Shown one piece after another: positions 1 to 7,258 of a stretch of 64,000 nucleotides of DNA. The notes under the pieces are model-generated. The model saw only the letters and a program-made list of their open reading frames with translations, was not told the origin of the DNA and searched no databases. Origin of the DNA: Rossellomorea aquimaris (lineage in GTDB: Bacteria; Bacillota; Bacilli; Bacillales; Bacillaceae_B); NCBI RefSeq assembly GCF_008180865.1, contig NZ_VTEX01000003.1, forward strand, positions 312,501 through 376,500, read 5' to 3'. The translations under genes and the position numbers were made by a program. Each line of letters starts with the position of its first letter. Positions within the stretch are counted from its first letter, which is position 1.

Positions 1-2
1 GT

Positions 3-185
3 CATCAGAATTCCTTTACATTAACCATTAAGACTAAAAATCAAGTTCTAGACATATTGAAATTCGTTCTGCCTTTTCTTAAAGTAGAAAAAAAGAGAAA
101 ACGTGCGGACTGGATCATTAAACATTATGATAGAGTAACAACTAGAAATGGGAAATACACTCCAGAATGTCTTAAGCAAAATTAA
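3..185 (+). CDS. LAGLIDADG-like homing endonuclease, C-terminal fragment (cut by window edge)
   Basis: An open frame enters from the left edge and stops at TAA 183-185, giving the last 60 residues of a protein. The readable part contains ILKFVLPFLKVEKKRK, then a basic stretch, RNGKYTPECLKQN and the stop. The pattern of a hydrophobic 'LPFL.V' segment, basic residues and a closing RNGKYTPE resembles the C-terminal end of single-chain LAGLIDADG-type endonucleases found beside bacterial and phage introns; this is recognition by eye. The catalytic motif would lie outside the window. The gene runs toward the 3' end of the intron-containing tmRNA gene and stops about 57 bp from it. It could instead be another DNA-binding protein of a mobile element inserted next to ssrA. 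Confidence 0.5.
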   Translation, partial: HQNSFTLTIKTKNQVLDILKFVLPFLKVEKKRKRADWIIKHYDRVTTRNGKYTPECLKQN

Positions 186-208: not shown

Positions 209-247
209 TTATAAAAAATAAAAAACCACCAAATATGTATTTGGTGG
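209..247 (-). terminator. Rho-independent terminator of ssrA
   Basis: On the minus strand the arms CCACCAAATA and TATTTGGTGG (226-247) form a hairpin followed by a T-rich tract. The left arm reuses the last bases of the tmRNA, including its CCA end, so terminator and mature 3' end overlap. Confidence 0.85.
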
Positions 248-258
248 AGACGGTGGGA

Positions 259-533
259 CGTGCACTTCCATGCTTTCGACATGGCACTGACTATATCTTG
301 AACCTGTAGTAGAGGTCCTTTGGCGTATTATGCGAAATATAGATTTACCTGTTGAGAGATATAAATTCCGCATCCTAGTACTACCGAACTTCGGCAGCCT
401 ATAAGTCGATACACGGCTGTTGGATTGCTCCACATACCGCTCGGCATTGCCTTATCACACTGTGTGTGACTTAGGTTTCACCGATAAAGCCAAATTTTCA
501 CTTATGTGTTGCCACATAAGGCGACTATAACTA
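259..533 (-). mobile_element. Group I intron in the tmRNA T-loop (no ORF)
   Basis: This 275-nt insertion separates GGGTTCGAT (ending at 534) from TCCCACC (starting at 258). It has the marks of a group I intron. The upstream exon ends in U, and the intron ends in G. Intron bases 9-12 (GUCG) pair with exon CGAU, placing a U-G wobble at the splice site, and two further pairs close a short P1 loop. A textbook S element AAGATATAGTC lies at 289-299, with a matching R-like stretch ACTAGGATGCGG near 370-382. P- and Q-like elements (TATCGGTGAAA, AATCCAACAGCC) precede it. There is no coding frame of useful length inside, so any endonuclease would have to act in trans. Confidence 0.9.
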
Positions 534-753
534 ATCGAACCCACGTCCAGAAACATCGCCACTTAAGCGTCTACGAGCGTAGTCGATATATTCGCAAGTT
601 CACTGCAGCTTCTGCCTATCGACGGGCGTCCGTGCAGCTAGTCTGATTGGTCTCTTCCTTTGTCCTCAGACGGTGGACTCCGGCGTAGCCTACTAAGAGT
701 GAGTCCCTTACCCTACCACATAGGCGATGGAGGGAGGAACAGCTAAAGCGCTA

Positions 754-789
754 TTACGCAGCTAAAGCTAAGTTATTGTTAGTTTTGCC
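754..789 (-). CDS. tmRNA proteolysis-tag reading frame
   Basis: The resume codon GGC begins an 11-codon frame encoding GKTNNNLALAA followed by TAA and TAG in tandem. With the alanine carried by the tmRNA, the tag would be A-GKTNNNLALAA. The B. subtilis tag is AGKTNSFNQNVALAA, so the start (GKTN) and the LAA-type protease signal are conserved while the middle is shorter and asparagine-rich. The LAA end is what ClpXP-type proteases recognise. Confidence 0.9.
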   Translation of the reverse strand, partial: GKTNNNLALAA

Positions 790-976
790 AGTTATTATTG
801 GCTTTGACGTTTTATCGTGGACGATCCCCACGGCTCGCAACCTAAGCTCGAACTATCCCTGTCGAATCCGTAACGTCCCCATGATAGAAAGGGAAGAACG
901 GGAAAGAATAAGTTCAGCGTGTAAGTCACTTATTCAATTGTTCTTACAGCCGCTTGATTACCTCGCGACATCTACT

Positions 977-1030: not shown

Positions 1031-1501
1031 TTACATCCCTTTTTGACGCTGAGCCAGTTCTCTCTGAATAGAGCGGTTCGCTTCTTTTCGTTTCAGATCT
1101 TCACGTTTGTCATACTTCTTCTTACCACGGGCGAGACCGATCAGAAGCTTTGCTACACCATTTTTGATGTATAGCTTCAAAGGAACGATTGAGTACCCTG
1201 CTTCTTTGGAATCACCGATCAGTTTATTGATTTGCTTTTTATGAAGCAGGAGTTTACGTGTTCGGAGAGGTTCGTGATTGAATCGATTTCCTTGTTCATA
1301 TGGACTGATGTGCATATTATGAACGAAAATTTCTCCATTTTGGACACGGGCAAAAGAATCCTTCAAGTTTACACGGCCACCACGGATCGCTTTGATTTCT
1401 GTTCCTTGCAGCACAAGACCCGCCTCATATGTTTCTTCTACGGCATAGTCATGACGCGCTTTTTTGTTTTGGGCAATAAGCTTGCCTTCTCCCTTTGGCA
1501 T
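1031..1501 (-). CDS. smpB: SsrA-binding protein SmpB
   Basis: Encodes a 156-residue OB-fold protein that binds the tRNA-like part of tmRNA and brings it to stalled ribosomes. The sequence [14 protein letters not shown], then [18 protein letters not shown] and [20 protein letters not shown] closely matches Bacillus SmpB throughout, including the basic C-terminal tail (ending [11 protein letters not shown]) that enters the decoding site. A longer frame adds 12 residues upstream, but the ATG at 1501 has a strong AGGGGG about 6 nt ahead and gives exactly the family length, so I chose it. The partner RNA gene ssrA lies just downstream and rnr just upstream, a functional rescue-and-degradation cluster. 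Confidence 0.97.
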
Positions 1502-1621
1502 TGGAATCCCCCTAGTCATTTCCGTTGGTTTACTCATTATTATCTCATATTCTCGAGAAAAATTGTATTGTTACACTTCGAAAAGAAAAGGAGCAAAGGT
1601 TATCCCATTGCCCCTGAACCT

Positions 1622-5965: not shown

Positions 5966-7258
<1,293 letters not shown>

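Follow-up and report, generated by a model that had tools for sequence, protein, structure and literature searches.

A group I intron in ssrA of Rossellomorea aquimaris and a convergent LAGLIDADG endonuclease gene: a candidate for collaborative homing on a bacterial chromosome

Group I introns that interrupt the T-loop of transfer-messenger RNA (tmRNA, encoded by ssrA) form a described class: 883 unique intron-bearing tmRNAs have been catalogued, most of them split at loop position 7 and predominantly from Bacillota, and endonuclease genes lie inside 36 of the 883 introns (PMC11915505). In Clostridium, a 287-nt tmRNA intron followed by a 24-nt 3′ exon is stated to have been shown earlier to self-splice (PMC2729099). 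A different arrangement is described for cyanophage S-PM2, where the psbA intron and the endonuclease F-CphI constitute a case of collaborative homing and the intron prevents self-cleavage (PMC6083498; PMC3984707). Here we analyze a 64,000-nt stretch of Rossellomorea aquimaris DNA (contig NZ_VTEX01000003.1, positions 312,501 to 376,500; hereafter the window), in which an ssrA intron without an open reading frame (ORF) stands beside a convergent LAGLIDADG endonuclease gene. The pair is probably an instance of collaborative homing on bacterial chromosomes.

The intron in the window is a further example of the described class, and the suggestion in an earlier note on this DNA that its site class might be known is borne out by the survey. 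The window intron shares with the class its site (between loop nucleotides 6 and 7), a U before the intron and a G at its end; it is 275 nt long against a class average of 293 nt, and like it most members hold no internal endonuclease gene and come from Bacillota (PMC11915505). The Clostridium case resembles it in combining a short tmRNA intron with a short 3′ exon (PMC2729099). The survey sought endonuclease genes inside introns, and its available text does not mention a free-standing neighbor (PMC11915505). That neighbor is the likeness to F-CphI and psbA, where an ORF-less group I intron likewise occurs with a free-standing endonuclease adjoining the intron-bearing gene; there the setting is a phage, a protein gene and an Endo VII-type enzyme with measured cleavage (PMC6083498; PMC3984707), whereas here it is a bacterial chromosome, an RNA gene and a LAGLIDADG enzyme in many lineages, with cleavage proposed from sequence. 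The parts of the locus are as follows.

259..533, minus strand: ORF-less group I intron, 275 nt, at position 7 of the T-loop (RF00028, covariation, boundary tests)
534..880, minus strand: ssrA 5′ exon, running from the acceptor stem (GGGGACG) through nucleotide 6 of the T-loop (RF00023 match, exon ends)
242..258, minus strand: ssrA 3′ exon, comprising the remaining T-arm, the acceptor 3′ strand and CCA (sequence, ARAGORN on the spliced form)
1..185, plus strand: free-standing gene for a LAGLIDADG homing endonuclease, C-terminal part only (ORF, PF14528/PF00961 and I-MsoI matches)

Since the endonuclease tracks the intron closely across relatives, the two probably belong to one mobile element, split in two, whose intron shields ssrA from the cutting enzyme. 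The ORF-less, presumably self-splicing intron would owe its mobility to the convergent LAGLIDADG endonuclease outside it. This enzyme would cut intronless ssrA at the T-loop or close to it, and repair with the donor as template would then copy the intron, flanking exon bases and the neighboring endonuclease gene into the recipient. The intron would split the target and thereby protect the donor's own ssrA, and an endonuclease aimed at the intron site would survive only where the intron shields that site. After fixation, the endonuclease would decay first, the intron would be lost later, and the cycle could restart. On a bolder reading, homing would also rewrite the T-arm by co-conversion, including the −1 base needed for splicing, and so could invade otherwise unsuitable alleles.

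The main alternative is that intron and endonuclease are two independent passengers, the intron inherited alone and the endonuclease targeting DNA behind ssrA rather than the T-loop. We consider this unlikely, given how the two are distributed in samples of the genus (36 genomes), order (397 genomes) and class (398 genomes). In the genus sample, the endonuclease is present in 11 of 36 genomes, all 11 with the intron. In the order sample, 53 genomes have an endonuclease match, and 45 of these carry the intron once two introns missed by the exact search pattern (G177 and G163) are counted, leaving eight endonuclease genomes without it. The match lies 338–1467 nt behind the T-loop site in 35 of the 53, always convergent, and G177 adds one more; an ORF-less intron and a free-standing endonuclease here adjoin the same host gene. 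When only close, near-full-length matches are considered (at least 50% identity over at least 97 residues, some with internal stops), 33 of 33 occur in intron genomes, though about 308 of the 397 genomes have no intron signature, and 26 of the 33 adjoin ssrA. No close near-full-length match was found in intronless genomes of the order, class or named samples. The class sample yielded six matches; outside the order a single copy (G454) is near full length, and it is beside an intron-bearing ssrA. A fragment in G494 lies on a separate contig of an intron genome.

Five of the seven close matches that do not adjoin ssrA (G114, G208, G278, G175, G297) are directly beside Tn7-like genes. In G208 and G297 the endonuclease is 29–30 kb behind ssrA and convergent, the pattern that an inserted element would leave, and in G114 and G278 it is on a different contig from ssrA. 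For the other two, endonuclease and ssrA lie near two contig ends (G125) or are separated by 6.6 kb (G331). Tn7-like genes (TnsA-B fusion, TniB/TnsC-like, TniQ) flank the endonuclease at loci L172, L175, L179, L181, L185 and L187. It looks as if Tn7-like elements had inserted between ssrA and the endonuclease, and the 3′ side of ssrA may be an attachment site of such elements. At another locus, the ssrA 3′ end together with the last intron bases is duplicated 1.7 kb apart (L195:1068-1084 and 2789-2805), like the attachment-site copies of an inserted element.

The association holds when host descent is taken into account. Among 80 named loci, no tmRNA was found in eight, leaving 72 with a resolved ssrA, behind which 1.6 kb was scanned. 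The 31 loci with an intron have nine long endonuclease copies, seven remnants and 15 without any trace, the basis for supposing that the endonuclease decays before the intron; the 41 without an intron have no long copy, one remnant and 40 without any trace. On a host tree built from RNase R and SmpB (FastTree, 80 rows, 72 with both traits), the intron changes at least 19 times, 13 of them on supported branches, against an average of 23.5 for shuffled labels, so that it is nearly scattered over the tree. In phylogenetically independent pairs, any endonuclease trace goes with the intron 8.0 times and runs counter to it 0.2 times (median p 0.008), which argues against independent passengers. So does the agreement of intron and endonuclease distances beyond host descent: pairwise distances correlate with r 0.69, and with 0.55 when SmpB is controlled for (0 of 2000 permutations; 30 loci), while the endonuclease-SmpB correlation given the intron is 0.28. 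Three of 33 distinct endonucleases were excluded from this test for want of the intron or SmpB in the locus. By this tree and by SmpB (99% identity), the closest named relatives of the window's genome are Rossellomorea. One row of the tree, L086 (JAGGRA010000029.1), titled 'Pseudomonas sp. ISL-84', groups in the Cytobacillus-like clade, and its title therefore looks wrong.

The endonuclease gene was missed in the earlier note because the window edge cuts it: the whole ORF spans L011:6799-7185 with a probable start at 6808, and about 200 bases precede the window. It is convergent with the ssrA 3′ end. PF14528 and PF00961 both score above cut-off and the sequence matches I-MsoI; the protein has a LAGLIDADG domain and fold, and NCBIfam gave no family. 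The window's genome has one match only. I-CreI, I-MsoI and I-CvuI are intron-encoded homodimers. The window endonuclease has their single-motif protein and fold and differs in being encoded outside the intron on the opposite strand; its single motif and length suggest a homodimer with cleavage activity. Of 266 database homologues, 120 were listed, and most of these share a uniform length of about 135 residues. The endonuclease is under purifying selection, the median ratio of nonsynonymous to synonymous substitution (dN/dS) being 0.13 over 22 usable pairs of copies without stops (506 of 528 pairs were excluded, with dS at or above 1.5 or undefined). Among phage, viral and plasmid carriers no close homologue was found, the only match being to Sphingobium phage Lacusarx (36%). 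Both the selection on stop-free copies and the uniform length speak against a reading in which the intron spread by reverse splicing or plain recombination of ssrA alleles and the endonuclease is a relic without a present role. That reading is improbable in our view, even though remnants are frequent (seven of the 31 named intron loci).

Exon sequences at the insertion site are consistent with homing in one clade. In a supported group of eight Cytobacillus-like rows, the four with the intron all read GTGGG-TTCGAT|T-CCCAC, while of the four without it three read GAGGG-TTCGACT-CCCTC and one (L077) GTGGG-TTCGACT-CCCAC. Intronless L088 and intron-bearing L089, L091 and L092 differ only at −10, −1 and +5 across the 360-nt mature tmRNA, and these differences include a compensated T-stem pair. 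Such a cluster of exon changes is co-conversion-like, matching what break repair would be expected to leave. More widely, T is at −1 in all 30 intron alleles resolved in the first set of named loci, and in 10 of that set's 21 intronless alleles (C in 11); 20 further intronless loci all have C. As a mark of a lost intron, T at loop position 6 of an intronless ssrA fits L025, where an endonuclease remnant goes with T, and fails for G377, where a remnant goes with C. The fuller proposal, that a chromosomal split homing element, with the intron as antidote and a T-arm rewritten by co-conversion, exists in the order of the window and in one or more further orders of its class, has in our judgment about an even chance of being right.

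Several observations weigh against collaborative homing, and some of them are what independent passengers would lead one to expect. Of 87 pattern-positive intron genomes, 44 have no endonuclease match, so the intron persists well without the endonuclease. Several of the 33 close matches are broken by internal stops or cut short, and the copy in G175, itself interrupted by stops, shares the strand of ssrA at a distance of about 450 kb. In the alignment the window's own copy stops about a dozen residues short of its relatives, a shortening that would suit a relic. The eight intronless order-sample matches comprise fragments (G377, G113, G056), remote homologues of 35–37% identity (G351, G292, G148), and 32% matches inside much longer ORFs (G199, G389). 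Intronless ssrA with an endonuclease remnant occurs in L025 and G377, and in intronless G113 a 26-residue fragment 1.9 kb behind ssrA is perhaps another. The remote homologues are found 717 nt (G292, locus L202) and 8.8 kb (G351, locus L188) behind ssrA and on another contig (G148), in genomes whose T-loops read TTCGACT or TTCGAGT; the one in G292, behind an intronless ssrA, counts against a strict rule and in favor of independent passengers. The same alternative gains from signs that ssrA 3′ flanks attract insertions generally, namely the Tn7-like genes and the duplicated ssrA end in L195. When only long copies are compared, the independent pairs give 4.4 against 0.0 and are not significant (median p 0.125). 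As for the footprint, selection for splicing may account for T at −1, intronless strains of the Cytobacillus clade (L077 and L081) likewise differ at the −10/+5 pair, and the Rossellomorea pairs compared show no change within 10 bases of the insertion site, their intronless alleles already having T at −1.

On balance we favor collaborative homing, with the cleavage site at the T-loop, protection by the intron and transfer all as predicted features. If true, collaborative homing, so far a matter of phages, would also operate on bacterial chromosomes and in a near-universal RNA gene; it would be the first case on cellular chromosomes and would explain the mobility of ORF-less tmRNA introns there. 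The question bears on tmRNA introns without an internal endonuclease, 847 of the 883 in the survey (PMC11915505), since the enzyme may, in this clade, simply be encoded outside the intron. The intron changes on this one tree would then offer many independent replicates in which to follow gain, decay and loss, and the homologues would provide natural I-CreI-like enzymes in large number, with their target predicted. No ORF-less tmRNA intron with a neighboring LAGLIDADG gene was found in the open-licence papers searched; Williams 2002 and Mao 2009 may mention one.

The anatomy of the intron is that of a group I ribozyme in the tmRNA T-loop, as the earlier note had proposed. A covariance-model scan of 150–900, a check of the kind suggested there, gave a full-length RF00028 (group I intron) match at 542–268 on the minus strand (E 3.8e-7, 35 bits); this is below the Rfam gathering score of 50, so a default scan misses the intron. 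The elements P2–P9 are present, with a P3/P7 pseudoknot and hairpins P7.1 and P7.2, which we take to suggest subgroup IA. The core of the ribozyme is intact, and relatives show covariation in it. In an alignment of 52 of 78 introns, compared with a structure written by hand after the Rfam alignment, P3/P7 pseudoknot included, 97.9% of cells are paired, and two-sided changes occur in 35 of 70 pairs (16.3 in shuffles), among them four of the six pairs of P3, which is pseudoknotted with P7. P7 itself is invariant and so uninformative on covariation. Sliding the 3′ partners by 1–3 columns lowers pairing to 33–40%.

ARAGORN also recognizes the tmRNA when the removed block is moved by −2 to +3, and splice rules rather than ARAGORN alone therefore define the exact ends. 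Three boundaries within ±12 bases give a preceding T and a terminal G; of these, only 259/533 restores the 7-nt T-loop TTCGATT closed by GTGGG/CCCAC, which singles out the splice sites originally claimed; the P1 pairing of exon CGAU with intron GUCG is as then described. The −1 U is paired with G in P1, the 3′-terminal base is G and the loop is restored, as expected of position-7 introns. The last base is G in all 78 distinct introns of the fetched loci, and the first is T in 77; the T before the intron had been built into the search pattern. In that search, which covered introns of up to 600 nt, 77 measure 263–308 nt, too short to hold an endonuclease gene plus a ribozyme, and one measures 425 nt; the endonuclease profile found no match in the latter, the sole intron scanned for it. 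Splicing of the window intron in the cell is predicted, and no self-splicing experiment on this Rossellomorea intron was found among the open-licence papers searched.

ssrA is on the minus strand of the window, a detail absent from the earlier note. The RF00023 match (872–532, minus strand, 148.7 bits) ends at the T-loop and misses both the acceptor and the T-arm's 3′ half. Neither the window nor the unspliced stretch yielded a tmRNA in ARAGORN; with 259–533 removed the program reported one with the tag GKTNNNLALAA, which upholds the claim that the gene is complete only after removal of the 275 nt. The spliced tmRNA measures 364 nt, and the S element AAGATATAGTC is present as claimed. The 4.74-Mb assembly has a single ssrA above cut-off, so the second intact copy that would have told against the intron does not exist at that threshold. 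That the genome's only ssrA is interrupted could suit a regulatory switch in which splicing gates ribosome rescue, as the earlier note had it. We regard this as very improbable: no hint of regulation was seen, the intron comes and goes among close relatives (at least 19 changes on the host tree), and the Rfam scan of 150–900 revealed no regulatory RNA such as a riboswitch; the fourth of its matches is at chance level.

The notion that the intron is rare in a Bacillus-like host did not hold up. It occurs in at least 22 of the 36 genus genomes (the fixed pattern finds 20, and a variable pattern that covered just part of the genus adds G000 and G007), and its exact 5′ signature in 87 of 397 order-level genomes; the intron itself is thus ordinary. 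In a phylum sample of 279 genomes two have the 5′ signature, and both belong to the same order as the window; this count says little about other tmRNA introns, which differ in sequence. A phage and plasmid search gave no match covering the length of the intron, the best covering 51% of the query.

Two further features accompany ssrA in the window.

216..247, minus strand: ssrA intrinsic terminator (terminator scan, L011 7247-7226 = window 247-226, plus T-rich tail)
1031..1537, minus strand: smpB, encoding the tmRNA partner protein, upstream of ssrA (ORF; SmpB 99% identical in Rossellomorea records)

The 5′ arm of the terminator hairpin is the CCACCA end of the tmRNA, and this stretch recurs in most of the relatives compared, with and without the intron. 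On a 410-kb Priestia megaterium plasmid, the 5′ part of an ssrA, 85.7% identical, reaches the insertion site (NZ_CP140268.1:160510-160865), with no intron match there. The window's genome holds a second group I intron at L012:5032-5370, minus strand (G000 C11:429532-429870; RF00028, 70.2 bits). It sits at the 3′ end of a flagellin gene, where the unspliced frame ends ...GVLQLLR, an ending that recurs directly behind the intron.
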